This document shows positions 6,917 through 19,328 of a DNA stretch of 40,204 bases, in pieces. The notes beneath the pieces were generated by a model that saw only the letters and a program-made list of their open reading frames with translations, had not been told where the DNA came from and did not search any database. Position 1 is the first letter of the stretch. Every line of letters begins with the position of its first letter. The position numbers and the translations under genes are program-made. Source of the DNA: Magnetococcales bacterium (GTDB taxonomy: Bacteria; Pseudomonadota; Magnetococcia; Magnetococcales; JADFWU01); assembly GCA_015234045.1 (NCBI GenBank), contig JADFWU010000028.1:1-40204 (forward strand), written 5' to 3'.

Positions 6917-7312
6917 ATGGCCGAACTTTTTTCCGATGAGTGGATGAAGAGATTGCAGGAAGAATGGAACAAAGAACCTGAACTCAAAGATGCGCTGGCA
7001 AAAATTGAGTTCAACTCCACCATCGCGTACGGCTTTGACGATGAAGATAACCCACGTGGCGTAGTCACCATTCAAAATGGTGAAGTCATCGCCGCCGCAG
7101 CCTATAACGGCCAAGAACTGAACTGGGACCTGCGTGCCTCTTCTGGCAACTGGGAAAAATGGATTAAAAAAGGCATCGGCATGATGGGATTGGGCATGGC
7201 CTACACATCCCGTAAGCTGAAGTTCAAAGTGGGTGACTATGCCGCCATGATCAAAGATCCTCGGATGGCAAAACCATTTATCAAGAGCTTTACGGTCATG
7301 GGCCGAGTTTGA
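6917..7312 (+). CDS. SCP2 sterol-binding domain protein (small lipid-binding protein)
   Basis: 131 aa, with no signal peptide, so probably cytoplasmic. The pattern fits SCP2-fold lipid carriers: an N-terminal amphipathic helix (ELFSDEWMKRLQEEWNKEP), a strand-rich middle with FDDEDNPRGVVTIQNGEV, then KWIKKGIGMMGLG and a C-terminal KLKFKVGDYAAMIKDPRMAKPFIKSF. The gly-rich loop followed by a long helix is where SCP2 proteins hold a hydrophobic ligand. A clear Shine-Dalgarno (GGAGG at about 6905) supports the ATG at 6917. It leads the RND adaptor and pump genes. The ligand is unknown; fatty acid, quinone or hopanoid are all possible. Confidence 0.72.
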   Translation: MAELFSDEWMKRLQEEWNKEPELKDALAKIEFNSTIAYGFDDEDNPRGVVTIQNGEVIAAAAYNGQELNWDLRASSGNWEKWIKKGIGMMGLGMAYTSRKLKFKVGDYAAMIKDPRMAKPFIKSFTVMGRV

Positions 7313-7442: not shown

Positions 7443-8615
7443 ATGTTCAGAATCAATAGACTCTATTCTATATGTGCCGTCTCTTTGGCGGTCTGGTGTT
7501 TATCCGCTGTTCCGGCAACAGCTCAACCAGTGGCAGATCATCAGGTCATTACGGTTGACTCCGGTGCCATTGGTACCACCACCACATTGGGCGGCACTGT
7601 TGTTCCGTTCAAAGAGGTGGCGCTGTCCGCACAGATGCCAGGTCGCATTGAATTTATCGCTGGTGTTGAAGGCGATTGGTTCAAAGCAGGCACACTACTT
7701 GTTGCATTGAACAATGATAATCTACTGGCAAAACAGCGGGCTGCCTATGCTCAGCTGGCTCAGGCGCAGGCTGGGTGGCGTAACGCACGTGTCCAGTACA
7801 CCAAGCAGGTCTACGCTGGTTCTGAATTCGCCAACAATGCCGGTATGGCTCTGCCCAAGGTAATGGATGAGGTGGTTACCCATCCCCTATCCTCTTTCAT
7901 GGGCACTACTGATCCCGAGCTGATCCGCCGCGCGCAGATCTTTGCCCAAGGTACTCGGATCGACCAAGCCCGTTTTCAGCTGATGCAAGCCTATGCTGGC
8001 ATCCAGGAGCTGAACGCCTCTCTGCGTGATACCAAAACCATCGCACCGTTTGACGGCGTGATCGTCAGCAAAGGCATTGAGATTGGCGATACGGTTCAAC
8101 CCGGCATGCCACCCTTTATGCTGCGCTTTGCCGATACCCGCCATCTACAAATCAAACTGGAAGTACCAGCCCGTCTGATGCCCGGTCTACGCAAAGGAAT
8201 GGTGATTCCCTCCCGCCTGGATGTCGGTGGTACTCGGATTGATACCCAAGTTGCCCAAATTTTTCCCATGGCAGATCCTCAGCGCCATACTGTGACGGTT
8301 AAGCTGGACCTACCCCAGGATGCACCTGGTGGCCCTGGTATGTACGCTGAAGTGATGGTGCCGGACATCACCTCCCCTATTGAAGATCTGCCTATCGTGC
8401 CAAAATCAGCGGTATTGTGGCGTGGCAGTCTGCCAGCGGTGTTTGTTGTGGATAGTAAAAGCAATTCCGAACTTCGGATGATCCGTTTGGGTGGTTTTGT
8501 AGACAATGATACCGTGAGCGTCCTCTCTGGCCTTAAAGTCGGTGAGCGCATTATTGTTAGTCCGCCGAGCACAATGGTCTCAGGCTGGAATAAAAAAGAT
8601 GATAATAAACAGTGA
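7443..8615 (+). CDS. RND efflux system periplasmic adaptor subunit (membrane fusion protein)
   Basis: 390 aa with an N-terminal signal peptide (hydrophobic core SICAVSLAVWCLSAVPATA). Seen: a first lipoyl half-motif (VALSAQMPGRIEFI ... VEGDWFKAGTLLVALN), a long helical hairpin of about 100 aa rich in Ala and Gln, the second lipoyl half (TIAPFDGVIVSKGIEIGDTVQPG), a beta-barrel domain (LQIKLEVPARLMPGLRKG) and a membrane-proximal domain ending in GLKVGERIIVSPPS. It should bridge the inner-membrane RND pump and an outer-membrane channel. No TolC-type gene is present nearby. The hairpin includes an unusually long insert around PKVMDEVVTHPLSSFMG. Confidence 0.92.
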   Translation: MFRINRLYSICAVSLAVWCLSAVPATAQPVADHQVITVDSGAIGTTTTLGGTVVPFKEVALSAQMPGRIEFIAGVEGDWFKAGTLLVALNNDNLLAKQRAAYAQLAQAQAGWRNARVQYTKQVYAGSEFANNAGMALPKVMDEVVTHPLSSFMGTTDPELIRRAQIFAQGTRIDQARFQLMQAYAGIQELNASLRDTKTIAPFDGVIVSKGIEIGDTVQPGMPPFMLRFADTRHLQIKLEVPARLMPGLRKGMVIPSRLDVGGTRIDTQVAQIFPMADPQRHTVTVKLDLPQDAPGGPGMYAEVMVPDITSPIEDLPIVPKSAVLWRGSLPAVFVVDSKSNSELRMIRLGGFVDNDTVSVLSGLKVGERIIVSPPSTMVSGWNKKDDNKQ

Positions 8616-8836: not shown

Positions 8837-11800
8837 ATGCAATCGAACTCTGACGATTATTCCAAAAAGTTCGAAAACGCGCTGGGCGTTGCGGGCTCAA
8901 TGGCGAACAACTTTATCCATTCGCCACTTTCGCCACTGCTGCTTTTTGCCTGCCTTGCCATGGGGATTATCGGCCTCATCGTAACGCCACGGCAGGAAGA
9001 TCCGCAGATCTCTGTGCCCATGGTGGATATTTTTGTCCACTATCCTGGTGCGTCCAGCGAACAGGTCGCCACACTGGTAACTGATCCCCTCGAACGGATC
9101 ATGTCTGAAATCTCCGGTGTCAAACATGTCTACTCCATGTCCGCCCGTGGTCAGTCCATGGTGACGGTTGAGTTTGATGTGGGCGAAAATATGGAGGATT
9201 CTCTGGTCAAACTCTATGACCGAATTCACTCCAATATGGACAAGGTGCCACCCGGTGTCACCAAACCCATGATCAAGCCAAAAGCGGTGGATGATGTACC
9301 TATCGTCACGCTGACCCTTTGGTCTAACGATGTGGATGATTCGGCATTGCGCACCCTCTCACTGGATGTTTTACAACGCCTTAATGAGGTAAAAAACACC
9401 AGTCAGGGATTTATAGTGGGTGGCCGTTCGGAACAGATTCGTGTTGAAGTCTATCCTGAACGACTCTCCGGCTATGGCATCAGCCTGGATCAGATTGCCA
9501 ATACCATCAAAACAGCCAATAGTGAGCAAGGTGTTGGCAATGTGGAGTCCGGCGGTGTCGGTTTCCAGGTCTATACCGGTGCTTTTTTGAAAAACGCACA
9601 GGATGTCAAACGCTTGGTGGTGGCTACCCGTCAAGGCATGCCCATCTATGTGGGTGATGTGTCCAAAGTGTATGCCGGCCCAGAAGATGCGAAACAGATT
9701 GTCACCTACTACACTGGCCCTGCCTATCAAGAGAATACCCCACCCGCAATTGGAGCATCCGCTGTCACTATCGCGGTTGCCAAACAGATTGGCTCTAACG
9801 GTGTTACCGTGGCCAATGAAGTTCTCGCGCGTGTGGAAGAGCTGAAAGGCCATCTGATTCCCAATAACGTCTTTGTTGCTGTGACCAGAAACTACGGTCA
9901 CACAGCAAATGAGAAAGTAAACGATCTACTGTTCAAACTGTTCATCGCCACGGCTGCGGTGACGGTTTTAGTGTACTGGTTCCTTGGCTTACGTCCCGCC
10001 ATTGTGGTGTTGATCGTCATTCCGGTTGTAATCCTGATGACGGTGTTTGCTGCATGGTTTATGAATTACACCATCGACCGTGTAAGTCTGTTCGCGTTGA
10101 TTTTCTCCATTGGCATCCTTGTGGATGATGCCATCGTTGTTGTGGAGAACATCTATCGACGATGGTTGCTTGAAAATAGTTGCTGCCCACTCACCTCCGT
10201 AGATGCAGTACGTGAAGTAGGCAACCCCACGATTCTAGCCACGCTGACGGTTATCGCCGCCTTGTTGCCCATGGGCTTTGTTAGCGGCATGATGGGCCCG
10301 TACATGGAGCCCATTCCTGCTCTGGGTTCGGTGGCAATGATCTTTTCATTGTTTGCCGCCTTTATCTTCACCCCTTGGTTGGCTCAGTTGATCAAGCCAC
10401 CAATGAAGACCCTGCACATTGCTTCTGAAAAAGAGCACAGCTCCGCAGAACGTTTGGAAAAATTCTATCGTTGGATCATTCCAACCTTGGTCTATAGTCG
10501 TTTCAAGGGCTTTATGTTCCTTGGTATCCTGGTGGTTGCATTTTTCCTCTCATTGTCACTTTTCTACACCACAGATGTGACTGTGAAGATTCTGCCCTTG
10601 GACAATAAAGGCGAATTCAACGTTGTGATCAATATGCCTGAAGGCACTGCACTGCCGCGCACGGCTAATCTGACCCAACGATTGACACAAAAATTGCGTC
10701 AGGAAATTCCTGAAATCATCGCTATGCAGACCTATGTCGGTACCGCCTCACCGTACAACTTCAATGGAATGGTACGTCACTACTATCTGCGTGGTCGTTC
10801 TTGGGAAGCCGATATCCAGGTTCAGTTGGTCCACAAATCCAAGCGTGAAAAGACCAGTCATGATATCGCATTGCTGGCGCGTAAACTGCTCACACCGATT
10901 GCAAAAGCTGAGAATGCCGCTATCCAGGTGGTTGAAATGCCACCAGGACCACCGGTTCTGCAATCCGTTGTAGCAGAGATTACCGGGCCGGATGCGCACA
11001 CTCGGCGTAAAATTGCTGAGGACATGACCGCCTTCTTCCGTCAGGCAGAGTCCATTGTGGATGTGGATAACTATATCCAACAGCCCTATGAAATCTGGCG
11101 CTTTGAAGTGGACACAGAAAAGGCTGTTCGTCGCGGTGTTTCTGTGGATGCCATTAACCGTAACCTCGGTATGGCCATGGGTGGCGCTAAACTGGGTGAT
11201 GTAAAGCGCGGGACCATTCTGGAACCGACCTATATCGTTATTCAGGTTCCACTTGAGATCCGTGCAAAAATCAGTAGCCTGGGCGACCTTCCCATCTCCA
11301 CACCGATGGGTACCACGATTCCGTTGGGTGAACTGGGACGATTCGTCAAGGATTATCAGGATGATTTGATCTTCCATAAAGACTTGCGCCCGGTTGAGTA
11401 TGTCACTGGTGAAGTGGAAGGCGATCTGGATGCGCCGATCTACGGCATGATGGAAGTTCAGGAGATTTTGGACAACTACATCACACCGGATGGCGTCTCC
11501 ATGTCCGGTCATTACATGGGACCGCCTGAAAACTATTCCCAATCCGGCTTTGAATGGAGCGGTGAATGGACGGTGACCTATGAGACCTTCAGAGATATGG
11601 GTATCGCCTTTGGCGTGGCTCTGATCTTGATCTACATGCTGGTTGTTTGGGAGTTTGGTAATTTCATTCTACCTGCGATCATCATGGCACCAATTCCTCT
11701 GACTCTGATCGGTATCGTACCGGGTCACTGGCTGTTTGATGCCAAGTTTACCGCGACTTCCATGATTGGATTTATCGCACTGGCTGGTATTATCGTGCGT

Positions 11801-12796
11801 AACTCCATTCTCCTGGTGGACTTTGCCCAACAGGAGATTCTCAAGGGCGTTAACGTTCTTGAAGCGGTAATCCTATCATGCAAGGCTAGAACCCGGCCTA
11901 TTATCATCACAGCTTTTGCCTTGGTCGCAGGTTCCAGTGTGATCATCACTGACTTTATCTTCCAAGGCATGGCTATCTCACTATTGGCTGGTGTATTGGT
12001 TTCTACCCTATTGACTTTGCTGGTTATTCCATTGGGTTGCATCAGTGCCCAACACGCTTTCCACAGCAATGATCCCGATGGTATACCACCACTGCCAAGC
12101 CCTCAGCAGATGGCTGCAAAACACCGGGAGGATACCTGCGCGCCACAGACTGGCAATGCTGGCTCTGCCCGTGATTTCATTGAGAAGTACAACTCACTCC
12201 CTGAAAAGAAACAGTCAGCCGTCAGCACAAAGGCAGAAAGCAGTAGCGCGCCTTTGGACGAAAATGTTGTGGATGCCGTTATCGTTGAAAATCCACCTGA
12301 AAAAGAAACAACGGACGGCACTGTCGGTACATTGGTAAAACAATCAGCTCCAAAAAAGCAGGTTGCTCCCAAAAAAGCGGTTAAAAAAACGCCCGCAAAA
12401 ACAGCAACCAAAGCGAAAGCCTCTCCTGCTAAAAAACCAGTTACTGAGGCCACCGCCAAGAAAAGCGCAACAAAGAAAACAACTGCAACAGTTGCAACTG
12501 ATGAAAAGGCAACAGGCACAACGGCAAAGACTGAGAAGCCCGCCGCAACAAAAAAGCCAACACCCCGTAAAACCACACGGCGTAAGGCTGCCCCCAAAAC
12601 AGCGGCATCCAAGAGTGCTGATAAAAGCACAAGCACACAAAAAACGGCGACAAAGAAAGCTGCGCCTAAAACTGTGGCAAAAAAGCGCACAACCAAGGCA
12701 CAGACAGCCAAAAATACCGATGCAACAGGCACCAAACGGCGTGGTATTCGGTTGAGAAAACCCGGGAGTGAAACAGAAGACAAATCTACTTCTTAA
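8837..12796 (+). CDS. RND superfamily efflux pump with a lysine-rich, histone H1-like C-terminal tail
   Basis: Inner-membrane proton-driven pump. Residues about 1-1075 form a full RND protein: TM1 (SPLLLFACLAMGIIGLIV), a periplasmic loop, TM2-6 with the proton-relay motif FSIGILVDDAIVVVENIY, a second periplasmic loop, and TM8-12 including IIMAPIPLTLIGIVPG and FIALAGIIVRNSILLVDFA. Related pumps end soon after TM12 at about 1050 aa. Here about 245 further residues follow. Residues about 1172-1312 are almost only Lys, Ala, Thr and Pro, with repeated PKKA, AKKS and TKKA units, ending RRGIRLRKPGS. By RND topology this tail is cytoplasmic and could bind DNA, RNA or acidic lipid head-groups. Start ATG 8837 has no clear Shine-Dalgarno. 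Substrate unknown. Confidence 0.93.
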   Translation: MQSNSDDYSKKFENALGVAGSMANNFIHSPLSPLLLFACLAMGIIGLIVTPRQEDPQISVPMVDIFVHYPGASSEQVATLVTDPLERIMSEISGVKHVYSMSARGQSMVTVEFDVGENMEDSLVKLYDRIHSNMDKVPPGVTKPMIKPKAVDDVPIVTLTLWSNDVDDSALRTLSLDVLQRLNEVKNTSQGFIVGGRSEQIRVEVYPERLSGYGISLDQIANTIKTANSEQGVGNVESGGVGFQVYTGAFLKNAQDVKRLVVATRQGMPIYVGDVSKVYAGPEDAKQIVTYYTGPAYQENTPPAIGASAVTIAVAKQIGSNGVTVANEVLARVEELKGHLIPNNVFVAVTRNYGHTANEKVNDLLFKLFIATAAVTVLVYWFLGLRPAIVVLIVIPVVILMTVFAAWFMNYTIDRVSLFALIFSIGILVDDAIVVVENIYRRWLLENSCCPLTSVDAVREVGNPTILATLTVIAALLPMGFVSGMMGPYMEPIPALGSVAMIFSLFAAFIFTPWLAQLIKPPMKTLHIASEKEHSSAERLEKFYRWIIPTLVYSRFKGFMFLGILVVAFFLSLSLFYTTDVTVKILPLDNKGEFNVVINMPEGTALPRTANLTQRLTQKLRQEIPEIIAMQTYVGTASPYNFNGMVRHYYLRGRSWEADIQVQLVHKSKREKTSHDIALLARKLLTPIAKAENAAIQVVEMPPGPPVLQSVVAEITGPDAHTRRKIAEDMTAFFRQAESIVDVDNYIQQPYEIWRFEVDTEKAVRRGVSVDAINRNLGMAMGGAKLGDVKRGTILEPTYIVIQVPLEIRAKISSLGDLPISTPMGTTIPLGELGRFVKDYQDDLIFHKDLRPVEYVTGEVEGDLDAPIYGMMEVQEILDNYITPDGVSMSGHYMGPPENYSQSGFEWSGEWTVTYETFRDMGIAFGVALILIYMLVVWEFGNFILPAIIMAPIPLTLIGIVPGHWLFDAKFTATSMIGFIALAGIIVRNSILLVDFAQQEILKGVNVLEAVILSCKARTRPIIITAFALVAGSSVIITDFIFQGMAISLLAGVLVSTLLTLLVIPLGCISAQHAFHSNDPDGIPPLPSPQQMAAKHREDTCAPQTGNAGSARDFIEKYNSLPEKKQSAVSTKAESSSAPLDENVVDAVIVENPPEKETTDGTVGTLVKQSAPKKQVAPKKAVKKTPAKTATKAKASPAKKPVTEATAKKSATKKTTATVATDEKATGTTAKTEKPAATKKPTPRKTTRRKAAPKTAASKSADKSTSTQKTATKKAAPKTVAKKRTTKAQTAKNTDATGTKRRGIRLRKPGSETEDKSTS

Positions 12797-12869: not shown

Positions 12870-14483
12870 ATGAGCCGTTTAACTTTGAAACGATCTTTAA
12901 TGACCACGCTTGCTGCGGCGACACTAATTGCTGTGTCAACCGGTCAAGCGTCTGATATGGCCCAAAGCTCTCCGACATGGCAAGACCAGGGGTTCAATGT
13001 TGCCCCTGGTGAGCCTTGGTATGATCAAAATTTCGGTGGCGTTCAATCCGCCAGTCCTGATCGTTATGGAACGCCACAGCCTCCACCACCAATACAGCGT
13101 CATGTTGCACCTAATCCTGGCTTTGTTCCGCCAGGAATGCCTACAGCACCTGGTGAGTCGGCTGACACGCCGGAAAATCCACCATTGGCTGCAATTCCCA
13201 TGGAGCCAACACCTTTCGGTTATCCACCAGCACCGCCTCCAGGATTTCAAGATGCGCCTTCCCATGCAATGGGAAACCCATATCCTCATGCCATGCGACT
13301 ACCTGGTACAAACCATGGTATGACGCAGCAAACCAACCAATGGGACATACCCAATCAAGTACAATATGGTCAAACGGGTCAAAACGGTGTGATACCGGGC
13401 AACCAGATTGATTGGTCACAATCCCCATTGCCCGGTCAAAATGGTATGCCCGACCGTATGAGATCAACACCGGGATATCACGGAACACCTACTCAATCCT
13501 ACGGATTGAGCAATAGGACAGCACCTTCCCATGGCATGACTTACGGTAACTCAGACAATTTCTATCGGCCCCGTCCAAATCAGCAGATGGATTATGGTCA
13601 ATACGGTCGTATGCCTGACCGTATGAATAGAAACCATGCTCTGCCCGGCACTACTCCTTATGGCCGTTTGCCTGATCCTGCCACCAGATACGATGCGCCT
13701 GAACCAATGAATTATGGTCAACCTGGACGTTCTGGGATGCACTATGGCCAGCCTGACATGTCCAATCACGACATGGGTCTGAGTCATTCTGGACACAACT
13801 CAGCGACAATGGACTACGGCAGGTATAATGCCAACCCAAACGCAAACTATGGGATGCCCTCCAATTCCTATCAAAGGCCCGGCAATCAAGGAATGTATGG
13901 CAGACAGGCTGCCAACCCCGGCATGAATTACGGAAGGCCTGACAACAATCACCACATGAATTTTGACATGCCCAGCACACCGCCTGACATGTCTTACACA
14001 ATGCCCGATCCGAATCAAGCCATGAACTACGGCATGCCTTTGCCCAATCGAGGTATGCATTTTGATGTGCCCAATCCCAATCGAGGTATGAACTTTGACG
14101 TACCTGATCCCAGTCGGAACATGCGCTTCGATGTACCTAGTCCCAATCAAGCCATGAACTATGCGCCCCACTTTGATCATCCCGCAGGGTTACTACCAAA
14201 CCTGGGAACAAATGGTGGACCTGCCCCCTACATGTCACAGGGTAATAGTGGTCATCAATCTGGATTCCAGCAGCCATCACAAGGGGATTCCGACTTTTCT
14301 CATTCGGGTTCCAGGCCTTTGATCATGACACCGCCCCCTTTTGGGCATGCCCCAGATAGTGGGGCTGAAATGATAACGCCACCACCGATCTTTGTAACGC
14401 CGAGCATGCCTGACATGCCCGAACAAGCCTCTGAGGCTGATTCAAATAGTGGTGAGCTGGAAACACAAGCAGTATCTGAGTAG
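12870..14483 (+). CDS. Exported Met/Asn/Pro/Tyr/Gly-rich repeat protein
   Basis: Not a family I recognise. 537 aa with a signal peptide (RSLMTTLAAATLIAVSTGQAS). The start is placed at ATG 12870, 6 bases after an AAGGAG box; ATG 12867 is adjacent. The mature protein is low-complexity: a Pro-rich first part, a Met/Tyr/Gly/Asn-rich middle, then an acidic tail with TPPP motifs. From 13923 it carries seven exact-length tandem units of 11 residues, consensus M-x-[FY]-x-x-P-x-x-x-x-x, with an eighth starting at 14154. The composition suggests a disordered or self-assembling extracytoplasmic protein. Regular Met and His could also bind copper. It is the first of six clustered genes for exported proteins that precede the ParA gene. 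Confidence 0.8.
   Translation: MSRLTLKRSLMTTLAAATLIAVSTGQASDMAQSSPTWQDQGFNVAPGEPWYDQNFGGVQSASPDRYGTPQPPPPIQRHVAPNPGFVPPGMPTAPGESADTPENPPLAAIPMEPTPFGYPPAPPPGFQDAPSHAMGNPYPHAMRLPGTNHGMTQQTNQWDIPNQVQYGQTGQNGVIPGNQIDWSQSPLPGQNGMPDRMRSTPGYHGTPTQSYGLSNRTAPSHGMTYGNSDNFYRPRPNQQMDYGQYGRMPDRMNRNHALPGTTPYGRLPDPATRYDAPEPMNYGQPGRSGMHYGQPDMSNHDMGLSHSGHNSATMDYGRYNANPNANYGMPSNSYQRPGNQGMYGRQAANPGMNYGRPDNNHHMNFDMPSTPPDMSYTMPDPNQAMNYGMPLPNRGMHFDVPNPNRGMNFDVPDPSRNMRFDVPSPNQAMNYAPHFDHPAGLLPNLGTNGGPAPYMSQGNSGHQSGFQQPSQGDSDFSHSGSRPLIMTPPPFGHAPDSGAEMITPPPIFVTPSMPDMPEQASEADSNSGELETQAVSE
13923..14153 (+). repeat. Seven in-frame 33-bp tandem repeats
   Basis: ATG codons recur exactly every 33 bases from 13923 to the start of an eighth copy at 14154. 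Each unit codes for 11 residues, such as MNYGMPLPNRG, MHFDVPNPNRG, MNFDVPDPSRN and MRFDVPSPNQA. The units have diverged, so the array is not very recent. The 33-bp period preserves the frame on gain or loss of copies. Confidence 0.9.
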
Positions 14484-15661: not shown

Positions 15662-16408
15662 ATGCATAATACTCAAATAGTCTCACACTATCTGACAGGC
15701 TCAACACGTGATATGGGCTGGATCAATAGACCTGTTGCGGTTTTTGAAAACGTATTTTTCGGTGGTGCCAAACCACTTATTCAATTTTTTTTTTCGTCCA
15801 GAATTCTTTTGGTCGGGCTGACATTCTTATGTTTTTTCATGCTTGGAATCAATACAGTATACAGTAAAAATTTCGAGAAATCGTTTTCAGCAGATGTCGT
15901 TCGCAACCATCCGCATCATCCAGAACGGAACTCTTCTGGCCGTATGTTTGTCTCTCCTTCTAAGGTACGTACTGAAGGAATATTGGATGGACACGCCGTG
16001 GTCATCCTTTTCCACACCGATCAAAATAAGGCTTGGATGCTGTTTCCAAAACAGAAGCGATTCACACCGTATCCTGGCAAAGATTTCTCTCGGCCGCCAT
16101 TACCTTATGAGAAAGAGAGCCCGTGTTACACCAATCCAGCCTATCAATGCCATAAACGGGGCAGGATACGTATTGAAGGGCGCTTGGTTGAACATTGGGA
16201 GGTGTTTGTCCTGCATGAAGGTAGAAGAATGCCTCATATGCAGCTTTGGGTTGATCCGAAATTGAAAATCGCCATTCGAGAACATTATGCAGATGGTATG
16301 ACTGTTGAATTGAAAAACTTGCACGAAGGGGCTCAACCCCCCAATATGTTTACTATTCCGGTTGATTATAAGGAACTCCCGTCAGAAAAAGAGGCGGCAA
16401 AGGAATAG
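15662..16408 (+). CDS. Membrane-anchored or exported protein with a LolA/DUF4412-like beta domain
   Basis: A hydrophobic segment (RILLVGLTFLCFFMLGIN) precedes a domain of about 165 aa: FSADVV, then SSGRMFVSPSKVRTEG, AVVILFHTDQNKAWMLFPKQKRFTPY, IRIEGRLVEHWEVFV, MQLWVDPKLKIAIREHYADG and PPNMFTIPVDYKEL. This strand pattern, with K-x-R-x-E followed by a W-x-L-x-P motif, is typical of LolA/LolB-like and DUF4412 periplasmic proteins that hold lipids or hydrophobic chains. The frame runs back to 15632, overlapping the previous gene; ATG 15662 is a compromise and ATG 15713 is possible. It is the only folded-looking protein among the low-complexity exported ones, so it may chaperone them; this is inference. 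Confidence 0.7.
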   Translation: MHNTQIVSHYLTGSTRDMGWINRPVAVFENVFFGGAKPLIQFFFSSRILLVGLTFLCFFMLGINTVYSKNFEKSFSADVVRNHPHHPERNSSGRMFVSPSKVRTEGILDGHAVVILFHTDQNKAWMLFPKQKRFTPYPGKDFSRPPLPYEKESPCYTNPAYQCHKRGRIRIEGRLVEHWEVFVLHEGRRMPHMQLWVDPKLKIAIREHYADGMTVELKNLHEGAQPPNMFTIPVDYKELPSEKEAAKE

Positions 16409-16752: not shown

Positions 16753-17394
16753 ATGATACGGCTTTCACCCCATTTGACTATTGTGGTGGTTGGGCTTCTG
16801 GTAAATTTAGCGATACCACTGTCGTATTCGACAGCTCAAGCAGGGGATGCTGTTGCTGGTAATGCGCTGTCAGGTCAGGAAGCGGCTGACTGGGGACGCC
16901 GGTTTGGGCAGTTTATGCACTCTTTTCAACAACAGATGCAGAGTGCTCAGAAAGATGCCCAGCAAAGTGTCCAACAATCCGGCGCTATTGTACCCAATGT
17001 AGCACCAGCGCTACCTCCTCAAATCACAGCTGTTCCCGAAGTACGTACCAAGCCGGCAACACCGCAAAAGCGGTCATATCCGGTTGATTCGGGTTTTGAT
17101 CCCTGGGGTGCCCGCAACTGGGGCGCACCGTATCTGGGCGTTGATCCTGGTCTATCTCAACTTCAGGATCCGTACTTATGGAGTGCAGATGGCTACCCAC
17201 GGGTTTATTGGCCTGAACACTCCAATGGTTTGTATGATCCTGGTTACCCGTATAATTGGCTCGACCATTCGGGTTACTATACTGGACATGACCCGTTTTA
17301 TGACCGAGGCTACGCACCTTGGGGCAATAATTCTTACGATGCGTATGATGGGTATTCCGACACACCATGGAGAGCAAATCCATGGGGTTGGTGA
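16753..17394 (+). CDS. Exported Tyr/Trp/Asp/Pro-rich protein ending in PWGW
   Basis: 213 aa, with a signal peptide (LTIVVVGLLVNLAIPLSYSTAQA, likely cut before GDAV). A helical Gln/Ser-rich stretch (RFGQFMHSFQQQMQSAQKD) follows, then a Pro/Val linker, then about 110 residues rich in Trp, Tyr, Asp, Pro and Gly (for example DPWGARNWGAPYLGVDPG). It ends DTPWRANPWGW. A GGAGAGG box supports the ATG. A hairpin with a T-run (17417-17452) follows. It has no recognised family. The aromatic-rich composition and position place it with the neighbouring Gly/Asn/Trp proteins as a likely extracytoplasmic structural protein. Confidence 0.8.
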   Translation: MIRLSPHLTIVVVGLLVNLAIPLSYSTAQAGDAVAGNALSGQEAADWGRRFGQFMHSFQQQMQSAQKDAQQSVQQSGAIVPNVAPALPPQITAVPEVRTKPATPQKRSYPVDSGFDPWGARNWGAPYLGVDPGLSQLQDPYLWSADGYPRVYWPEHSNGLYDPGYPYNWLDHSGYYTGHDPFYDRGYAPWGNNSYDAYDGYSDTPWRANPWGW

Positions 17395-17480: not shown

Positions 17481-17840
17481 ATGAAAAAGGGTACACGTAT
17501 TCTCATGTTTGCCGCACTTCTTGGTATCGGCGCTATGACTAGCTCAGGCGATGTAGATGCCTGGGGTTGGGGCCCCGGATGGGGTAACAACAATGGCTGG
17601 GGCAACAATGGTTGGAACAACGGTTGGGACAACAACGGTTGGGGCAATGGCTGGGGCAACGGTAACGGCTGGGGCAATGCTGGTTTGAATTTCAACATTG
17701 GCGCCGGTGGCTGGGGCAATGGCAATGGCAACGGTTGGGGAAACAACGGTTGGAATAACGGCTGGAACAATAACAACAACGGCTGGAACAATGGCTTCTT
17801 TCCTGGAAATGGATGGGGTCCCGGTTGGTGGGGTTGGTAG
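17481..17840 (+). CDS. Exported Gly/Asn/Trp-rich protein, sulfur globule protein-like
   Basis: 119 aa. The signal peptide MKKGTRILMFAALLGIGAMTSS is followed by a probable cut before WGWG. The mature chain is nearly all Gly, Asn and Trp in GW-N-N units, with one short more normal stretch (LNFNIGAGG), and ends GWGPGWWGW. A perfect AGGAGG box lies 8 bases before the ATG. Purple sulfur bacteria coat periplasmic sulfur globules with small exported Gly/Tyr/Asn-rich proteins of this size and layout (SgpA, SgpB, SgpC). The resemblance here is in composition and architecture, not in alignable sequence. It is paralogous to the next gene. Other glycine-rich structural proteins remain possible. Confidence 0.82.
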   Translation: MKKGTRILMFAALLGIGAMTSSGDVDAWGWGPGWGNNNGWGNNGWNNGWDNNGWGNGWGNGNGWGNAGLNFNIGAGGWGNGNGNGWGNNGWNNGWNNNNNGWNNGFFPGNGWGPGWWGW

Positions 17841-17889: not shown

Positions 17890-17916
17890 GTTTTCCACTT
17901 GATACGGAGCAACATA

Positions 17917-18315
17917 ATGAAAAAGACTATCAGTGCTTTGGCGTTTGCCGCCCTGTTGGGTAGTGCTACATTTATGACCAGCACAGGCGCTGACGCCTGG
18001 GGTTGGGGTGGTCCTGGTTGGGGCAACAACAATGGCTGGAACAACAATAACGGCAATTGGGGCAACAACGGCTGGGGCAACGGCAACGGCAATGGCTACG
18101 GCGGCGGCAATGCTGGCATGAACTTTGGCTTCGGCGGTGGTGCCGGTGGCAATGCTTATGGTAATGGCAACAATTCCTGGAACGGTAACAACGGCTGGAA
18201 CGGCAACAATGGCTGGAACAACGGCTACGGCGGATACCCCGGATACGGCTATCCCGGATACGGTGCTGGCCCTTGGGGCGCTCCTCCTGCTCCTAAAGCA
18301 GAAGCTGAGAAGTAA
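17917..18315 (+). CDS. Exported Gly/Asn/Trp/Tyr-rich protein, sulfur globule protein-like
   Basis: 132 aa from ATG 17917. That start follows a CGGAG box and gives a signal peptide matching the preceding paralogue (MKKTISALAFAALLGSATF, likely cut after GADA); the frame is open back to 17878. The mature part begins WGWGGPGWGNNNGW, the same as its neighbour, then a Gly/Asn run, then a GGYPGYGYPGYG segment and a charged end PAPKAEAEK. The Tyr-Pro-Gly segment is strikingly like that of sulfur globule proteins of purple sulfur bacteria. The two paralogues lie 76 bases apart and have probably arisen by duplication. Likely periplasmic or surface structural protein. Confidence 0.84.
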   Translation: MKKTISALAFAALLGSATFMTSTGADAWGWGGPGWGNNNGWNNNNGNWGNNGWGNGNGNGYGGGNAGMNFGFGGGAGGNAYGNGNNSWNGNNGWNGNNGWNNGYGGYPGYGYPGYGAGPWGAPPAPKAEAEK

Positions 18316-18641: not shown

Positions 18642-19328
18642 ATGATAACGGTTGTTGCGAATCTAAAAGGTGGATGTGGCAAGAGTACGGTAACCTTTAA
18701 TTTGGCCGTATGGCTTTCCATGACCGGGCAGTCTGTCATCTCATTTGACCTGGATCCCCAGGCCACATTGAGTGAGGTGGTGGACGTGCGTCGAGAAATG
18801 GGTGTTGAGCCTGCCCTCACCGTTTACCGGCCGGATGTTGATCCTGAGCCGTTGATCAAGCAAAAAGATGGTGGCATGGTCTTGATGGACATCAGCGCGA
18901 CAAACCGCTGGACCATGCGGTATGCCATTCGGAACGCTGCTCGCATCATCGTTCCTGTTCCACCCAGTCAGGCAGATGTCTGGTCTACCCAGCGTTTTCT
19001 GGATATCGTTGCGGAAACGTTGGCTGGCAAGAAGCAACCTGAAATTTACATGTTCATCAACCGCGCTGATACCCATCCCGGTTTGAAAGAATCGGATGAA
19101 ACACAGGAGGCGCTTGAGTCTCTGTATGGTGTCACGGTATTGAAAGAACGTCTTGGCCAACGAACAGCCTTTCGTCGCTCTTTCAGTGAAGGGCGGGCCG
19201 TTTTCGAGCTTTCCCGCCGTAGCAAAGCCGCTGAGGAGTTTTTGCAATTGACTGACAGGCTCTTTCCAGAGCTTTCCAAATCTTTTGCTATTCCAAGCGC
19301 CAAAAAAATCGGAAAGGCTGATCAATAA
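18642..19328 (+). CDS. ParA/MinD-like P-loop ATPase
   Basis: 228 aa cytoplasmic ATPase of the Walker A cytoskeletal family, which moves or positions chromosomes, plasmids and large protein bodies. Seen: deviant Walker A KGGCGKST with signature lysine K9 and catalytic lysine K14, Walker A' FDLDPQATLS, Walker B GMVLMDIS, and PVPPSQADVWSTQRFLDIV as in ParA-like proteins. The short, orphan-like form lacks an N-terminal helix-turn-helix, as in McdA-type positioning proteins. An AAGGAAG box supports ATG 18642. Its stop overlaps the start of the next gene (TAATG), so the two proteins are made together. No ParB or parS-like site was seen, which argues against plasmid partition. Confidence 0.88.
   Translation: MITVVANLKGGCGKSTVTFNLAVWLSMTGQSVISFDLDPQATLSEVVDVRREMGVEPALTVYRPDVDPEPLIKQKDGGMVLMDISATNRWTMRYAIRNAARIIVPVPPSQADVWSTQRFLDIVAETLAGKKQPEIYMFINRADTHPGLKESDETQEALESLYGVTVLKERLGQRTAFRRSFSEGRAVFELSRRSKAAEEFLQLTDRLFPELSKSFAIPSAKKIGKADQ

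Follow-up and report, generated by a model that had tools for sequence, protein, structure and literature searches.

The stretch analyzed here, called the window below, comprises the 40,204 nucleotides of contig JADFWU010000028.1 from a Magnetococcales bacterium (GenBank assembly GCA_015234045.1). It encodes a pump of the resistance-nodulation-division (RND) type (8837-12796, + strand) with a long C-terminal tail, near the end of which lies a short basic peptide. This peptide recurred in orthologues from several bacterial groups, where it accompanied a ParA-type ATPase of the same gene cluster and was lost together with it in three otherwise collinear clusters. Judging from these comparisons, it is rather probable that the pump acts as a membrane-anchored partner, presumably the cargo, of the ParA-type ATPase, whose gene lies about 6 kb farther downstream. 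The features concerned are the following:

8837-12058, + strand: RND permease core, residues 1-1074, matching ACR_tran (PF00873), with the Asp pair of a GILVDDA motif
12059-12793, + strand: disordered C-terminal tail, residues 1075-1319, with low predicted local distance difference test (pLDDT) values in orthologue L038; stop codon at 12794-12796
12338-12733, + strand: Lys/Ala/Thr/Pro-rich, H1-like linker part of the tail, residues 1168-1299, composition not conserved
12737-12757, + strand: C-terminal peptide RRGIRLR (family consensus RRGI[R/Q/K]LK), conserved in long tails
18642-19328, + strand: ParA-type ATPase with the deviant Walker A motif KGGCGKST, proposed partner of the peptide from its family, fold and co-occurrence

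Orthologue tails were translated from 41 genomes of the order and from contigs of named genomes. They represented 102 distinct loci (L numbers), of which 92 displayed a tail reaching a stop codon; 71 of these were long (at least 80 residues) and 21 short, eight duplicate loci (L031-L035, L038-L040) and ten run-off tails having been left out before the count of 71. The pattern RGI[RKQ][LM] was encountered 6-29 residues from the C-terminus in 63 of the 71 complete long tails (0.01 expected from shuffled tails) and in none of the 21 short ones. Among 81 peptide-bearing tails, in which the search pattern itself dictated R, G and I, R occupied position -1 in 78, L position +4 in 78 and K position +5 in 71. 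The 4487 open reading frames (ORFs) of the cluster loci contained the motif only once elsewhere, in the rest of the L033 tail past an assembly gap.

Eight long tails were scored as lacking the motif. L009 has it past an assembly gap, L014 displayed a degenerate peptide (RRRAVRVRK), and it was missing from L047, L060, L095 and L098, as well as from L081 and L093, which carry a different tail; the genome of L095 encodes another pump, L182, that does carry the peptide. The pumps of L081 (8001-11492) and L093 (3878-7342) end in a related segment of 100-105 residues instead of a disordered tail and without an RRGIRLK peptide; we take this segment to be a lookalike of a small HMA-type domain. Tailless pumps were mostly paralogues, and the same genomes held a second, peptide-bearing copy, usually on the contig of the ParA gene.

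The linker between core and peptide was highly variable. Tails of about 80-380 residues were found in orthologues throughout Magnetococcales and in many gammaproteobacteria, and ranged from K/A-rich (window) to acidic and V/E/Q-rich (L004, L008) or P-rich (L002, L027). In the 81 peptide-bearing tails, linkers measured 63-330 residues (median 186), K, A, T and P together making up a fraction of 0.24-0.63 and the net charge per residue ranging from -0.13 to +0.18. The AlphaFold2 model of L038 combined a confident RND core with a tail at pLDDT 27-36, which means that the short basic peptide conserved near its end lies in a disordered terminal region, as in known partners of ParA-type ATPases. Tails of L047, L042 and many gammaproteobacteria additionally displayed one or two long hydrophobic-amphipathic helices between transmembrane helix 12 (TM12) and the linker.

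The pump gene itself was one uninterrupted frame of 1319 residues, of which residues 23-1066, the full core, matched ACR_tran at 499.5 bits (cut-off 28). Both Asp residues of the GILVDDA motif were invariant in an alignment of 39 sequences (D418 and D419 in L038) and presumably form the acidic proton-relay pair of TM4. The best named relatives were encoded by metagenome-assembled genomes (MAGs) of Magnetococcales (75-80 % identity). In its full ACR_tran core, upstream adaptor gene and invariant Asp pair, this family resembles other RND permeases (AcrB/MdtB/CusA superfamily), but it differs from them by the tail ending in a conserved peptide, by its tie to dsrA-bearing genomes and by scores below all named NCBIfam RND subfamily cut-offs, the best being RND_permease_2 with 444.7 bits against 1250.

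A previous sequence-only reading of the window had described about 245 residues after the last membrane helix, about 140 of them Lys/Ala/Thr/Pro repeats, in a pump type that normally ends shortly after TM12. This anatomy was correct, since solved RND chains, which are about 1022-1069 residues long, stop shortly past the same point: their match to the window pump ended at about residue 1003-1040, and that of the remaining RND permeases encoded in this genome at about residue 1066. Residue 1074 is followed by 245 residues with a net charge of +29; the Lys/Ala/Thr/Pro-rich part within them comprises 132 residues (K 34, T 30, A 29, P 10; net charge +32), and no tandem repeat was found in the tail DNA. 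The comparison with relatives that this reading had called for gave a tail of 108-336 residues after the same core in all 30 order-level loci, that of the window included, L009 being broken by an assembly gap; a frameshift or fusion artefact, which it had considered as a possible explanation, is thereby excluded.

The ATPase displayed the deviant Walker A motif KGGxGK[ST], of which K9, G10, G11, G13, K14, S15 and T16 were invariant among 25 sequences. Its sequence profile was nearest to TP228 ParA/ParF, and its predicted structure (pLDDT 90.7) gave its best fold matches with TP228 ParA from a ParA-ParB complex (E 6e-13). The nearest curated family, the ParA_partition equivalog NF041546, was matched at 135 and 129.8 bits, below its cut-off of 180.

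In forty genomes (G numbers) reached via the pump loci, ParA and every copy of the pump were looked for, unseen C-termini being fetched, and the genomes were scored by hand; this set overlaps with the 41 Magnetococcales genomes and the 397 genomes of the phylum treated below, and absence calls for ParA or pump are limited throughout by MAG incompleteness. ParA was present in 29 of the 40 genomes, 28 of them with a peptide-bearing pump and one unreadable (G053). The 11 genomes without ParA comprised eight without peptide (G043, G045, G047, G048, G049, G056, G063 and G066), two with it (G042 and G079) and G050, unreadable because a third pump fragment runs off the contig end beside the dynamin gene. 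With the two unreadable genomes excluded, the peptide was displayed by 28/28 genomes with ParA against 2/10 without (Fisher p 9e-7), so that the putative partner co-occurs with the candidate cognate ATPase. Motif-bearing loci with long downstream flanks mostly included ParA, and for L031, L038 and L054 it was found elsewhere in the genome.

The larger samples displayed a similar distribution. Among the 397 genomes of the phylum, the pump was found in 31, ParA in 31 and both in 30; the only genome with the pump alone (G003) carries a degenerate peptide, and in the only one with ParA alone (G009) the contig stops within the pump. ParA was present in three sampled genomes outside Magnetococcales: the peptide was present in G247 and G289, and the tail of G414 runs off its contig. 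Within the 41 Magnetococcales genomes, the peptide was found in 31 but not in G003; three were unreadable (G009, G016 and G027), and in six no pump orthologue was found (G013, G014, G025, G035, G036 and G038). ParA accompanied 27 of the 31 peptide-bearing genomes, all three unreadable ones and two of the six devoid of an orthologue (G025 and G038), and was missing from G003.

Three otherwise collinear clusters, L034, L060 and L065, had cleanly lost ParA (ParA queries yielded only weak matches there, E 0.007 or worse), and none of their pumps displayed the peptide. It was degenerate in L034 and absent from the Lys-rich tail of L060, and the L065 tail was cut to 40 residues. At the site of the missing gene, orf230 directly followed the Gly/Trp-rich gene in L034, the TM/TPR gene directly followed the LolA-like gene in L060, and in L065 the latter was succeeded directly by a frame leading into the TM/TPR and orf230 genes. 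L060 and L065 had kept the dynamin gene downstream of the pump.

These clusters also bear on another explanation, namely that the peptide docks onto a different cytoplasmic protein of the module (the TPR protein, orf230 or the dynamin-like GTPase) or onto an unlinked enzyme, ParA merely being gained and lost with the module. The entire cluster is conserved, so module-wide loss would also yield co-occurrence, and the 96 % complete genome G036 is devoid of pump orthologue, ParA and dsrA together. This explanation is unlikely, though it keeps some weight: L060 and L065 retain LolA-like, TM/TPR, orf230 and dynamin genes yet lack both ParA and peptide, and L034 retains orf230 without ParA. The dynamin gene was found in 5/8 peptide-less (ParA-less) and 27/30 peptide-bearing genomes (p 0.09); it does not significantly track the peptide and was rejected as the gene doing so.

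Several observations speak against a partnership of pump and ParA. The peptide was found without ParA in G002, G030, G033 and G037 (65-80 % complete), G042 and G079. G042 and G033 look like one MAG, since identical tails were obtained from their loci L033 and L009, and in G079 a ParA gene may sit in a gap between contigs, as the pump contig stops shortly past the LolA-like gene and another contig starts with the dynamin gene. On the pump tree, the peptide changed five times and ParA nine times; four independent pairs on well-supported branches gave 3.8 changes in the same direction and none in the opposite one, and the corresponding sign test (p 0.125) lacks power with four pairs. The peptide is C-terminal, and not N-terminal as in the partners covered by the available portions of the papers cited below. 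A hydrophobic helix of intermediate amphipathicity occurs in many gammaproteobacterial tails, and hydrophobic-moment figures do not settle its topology; a single crossing of the membrane by this helix would put the peptide on the periplasmic side.

The composition of the window tail had led the sequence-only reading to propose a histone H1-like tail that could tether nucleic acid or the nucleoid to the membrane. Direct binding of DNA or RNA by a Lys/Ala-rich tail, tethering the nucleoid to the pump, would agree with the K/A/T/P-rich, low-complexity sequence of the window tail, its charge of +29, its weak similarity to the bacterial H1-like family NF038053 (30.6 bits) and a K/A-rich composition in several other tails. 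It is nevertheless improbable: the cut-off of that family, 80 bits, was not reached, and a strongly basic tail is not a property of the orthologues, 26 of the 81 linkers having a net charge of zero or below although all 81 tails carry the peptide. In view of the low score and the uncharged or acidic linkers, a histone-like DNA tether was rejected as the conserved function. Since linker composition and charge vary widely among orthologues, the H1-like look is one state of a drifting linker. The nucleoid tethering and pump clustering suggested in the same reading may still hold, by way of the end peptide and the ParA-type ATPase and not through the H1-like composition.

Basic-hydrophobic peptides can bind acidic lipids, and this one sits on the same chain as the pump; it might thus act on the pump itself, as an autoregulatory or membrane-surface element. 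We regard this as very improbable, for it leaves the rule linking peptide and ParA unexplained, the same genomes hold tailless paralogues with related cores, and AlphaFold2 places the entire tail at pLDDT around 30. Because of these values in L038 (27-36), the model offers no confident docking of the peptide onto the pump, and a self-docking tail was rejected, within the limits of a single model in which the tail has low confidence. That the tail is an artefact or a neutral low-complexity extension has practically no chance of being right, since tails with the same end peptide recur over orders and classes, however fast-evolving and compositionally biased their linkers, and the conserved peptide already refutes it.

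In the proposed partnership of pump and ParA, the tail would be a flexible cytoplasmic tether whose end peptide, RRGI(R/K/Q)LK, would dock on the ATP-bound, nucleoid-associated ParA dimer. Docking would stimulate the ATPase, in the way in which ParB, ParG, McdB and PomX activate their own ATPases with basic peptides at the N-terminus. The pump would thus be tethered to the nucleoid indirectly, via ParA, and could be clustered or positioned together with the envelope site at which the sulfur-globule-type cluster works. The comparisons show the intact tail with its variable disordered linker and conserved peptide, the conserved cluster, the family and fold of the ParA-type ATPase, and the joint occurrence and loss of peptide and ParA; binding, stimulation, nucleoid-based positioning and a role in sulfur storage are inferred.

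Such a mechanism has precedents. According to the available portions of the sources, the nucleoid serves ParA-type ATPases as a matrix for positioning, and for many ParA/MinD ATPases, termed orphans, no partner is known (PMC10241942). Their known partners act via short, positively charged, disordered terminal peptides, and the ParB peptide also contains aliphatic residues (PMC10241942; PMC12462528; PMC12204374, a preprint; PMC7993993); in the PomX paper it is argued that an activating protein can arise when a peptide of this kind is grafted onto an interaction domain. The window resembles the systems TP228 ParA-ParG, ParA-ParB, McdA-McdB, PomZ-PomX and PpfA-TlpT in combining a deviant Walker A ATPase, with TP228 ParA as nearest solved structure, and a putative partner that co-occurs with it in one cluster and has a short basic peptide conserved within a disordered terminal segment. 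It differs in that the putative partner is an integral-membrane, proton-driven RND pump, and in that the peptide is C-terminal, on a tether of about 60-330 residues, where the partners described in those portions have it at the N-terminus. Among the matches listed in the open-licence literature, no title or abstract opening joined an RND pump tail to ParA.

The surrounding cluster was conserved in Magnetococcales, gammaproteobacterial and Rhodospirillaceae loci, and two named isolates, Thiothrix caldifontis (L069) and Thiorhodococcus minor (L082/G057), carry it. It consists of a small protein, adaptor, pump, low-complexity secreted proteins (some of them Gly/Asn/Trp-rich), a LolA/DUF4412-like protein, the ParA-type ATPase, orf230 and a dynamin-family GTPase, joined by a TM/TPR protein in many gammaproteobacterial loci. 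Its further members in the window are listed below; the secreted protein at 16753-17394 is described from its sequence alone.

6917-7312, + strand: small conserved cluster protein, 56-95 % identical beside the pump, no Pfam hit
7443-8615, + strand: periplasmic adaptor (membrane fusion protein) of the pump, HlyD_D23 / HlyD_3, adjoining most pump loci
12870-14483, + strand: low-complexity Pro-rich protein with signal-like N-terminus, no Pfam match, similarly placed in L070, L059 and L042
14589-15638, + strand: low-complexity Pro/Tyr-rich protein
15704-16408, + strand: LolA/DUF4412-like protein, conserved in position; the L070 homologue matches DUF4412 (35.3 bits)
16753-17394, + strand: secreted protein with Tyr/Gly/Trp-rich C-terminal part
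17481-17840, + strand: secreted Gly/Asn/Trp-rich protein
17914-18315, + strand: second Gly/Asn/Trp-rich protein of the same kind, with similar ORFs in L070 and L034
19328-20020, + strand: orf230, with one hydrophobic helix, a Met-rich coiled-coil-like part and the C-terminus RPMSFINRFMPW

The small protein at 6917-7312 reached 95 % identity in Magnetococcales loci and 56-74 % in distant ones, an unusually high conservation for an unnamed protein; it matched no Pfam or NCBIfam model, and we assume it to be SCP2-like. In an alignment of four sequences, the C-terminal end of orf230, RPMSFxNxFMPW, was nearly invariant from Magnetococcales to gammaproteobacteria. The dynamin-family GTPase (PF00350; for instance L070:17016-18605) was encoded in the same cluster in gammaproteobacteria and found in 34 of the 40 genomes.

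Within the sample of 397 genomes, 30 of the 31 with the pump also carry dsrA, against only 8 of the 366 others; the pump is therefore tied to dissimilatory sulfur metabolism and not to general drug efflux. The joint absence of pump orthologue, ParA and dsrA in G036 suggests that this genome lost the whole sulfur module. The Gly/Asn/Trp-rich proteins at 17481-17840 and 17914-18315 are, we assume, sulfur globule protein lookalikes; no NCBIfam or Pfam model matched the single homologue tried (L070:13506-13892), so this label is tentative. As far as the available part of their description goes (PMC10386293), the sulfur globule proteins SgpA-D of Allochromatium are comparable to the secreted Gly/Asn/Trp- or Tyr-rich proteins of this cluster, with dsrA in 30/31 genomes, and differ from them in that the cluster proteins have no library match and in that no tie to ParA was found in that part.

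For one ParA subfamily, the pump is now a strong candidate as partner, with a seven-residue peptide and with natural joint losses that serve as controls, and an RND transporter would be an unexpected partner class for a ParA-type ATPase. It also calls for caution with 'histone-like' tails, which may be drifting linkers bearing one short functional motif. If the partnership is real, envelope transport in dsrA-bearing bacteria would be connected with nucleoid-based positioning, and the placement of sulfur globules or of their export sites would become a directly testable question. Somewhat short of an even chance, in our estimate, is the further step that in sulfur-storing bacteria the ParA-type system, with the RND pump as partner and cargo, holds or distributes the envelope machine serving the sulfur globules over the nucleoid by means of the C-terminal RRGIRLK tag on its disordered tether. 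If so, sulfur globules would have an organelle-positioning system of their own, analogous to the one that McdAB provides for carboxysomes, and the K/A-rich linker of the window's lineage would perhaps add weak nucleoid affinity.

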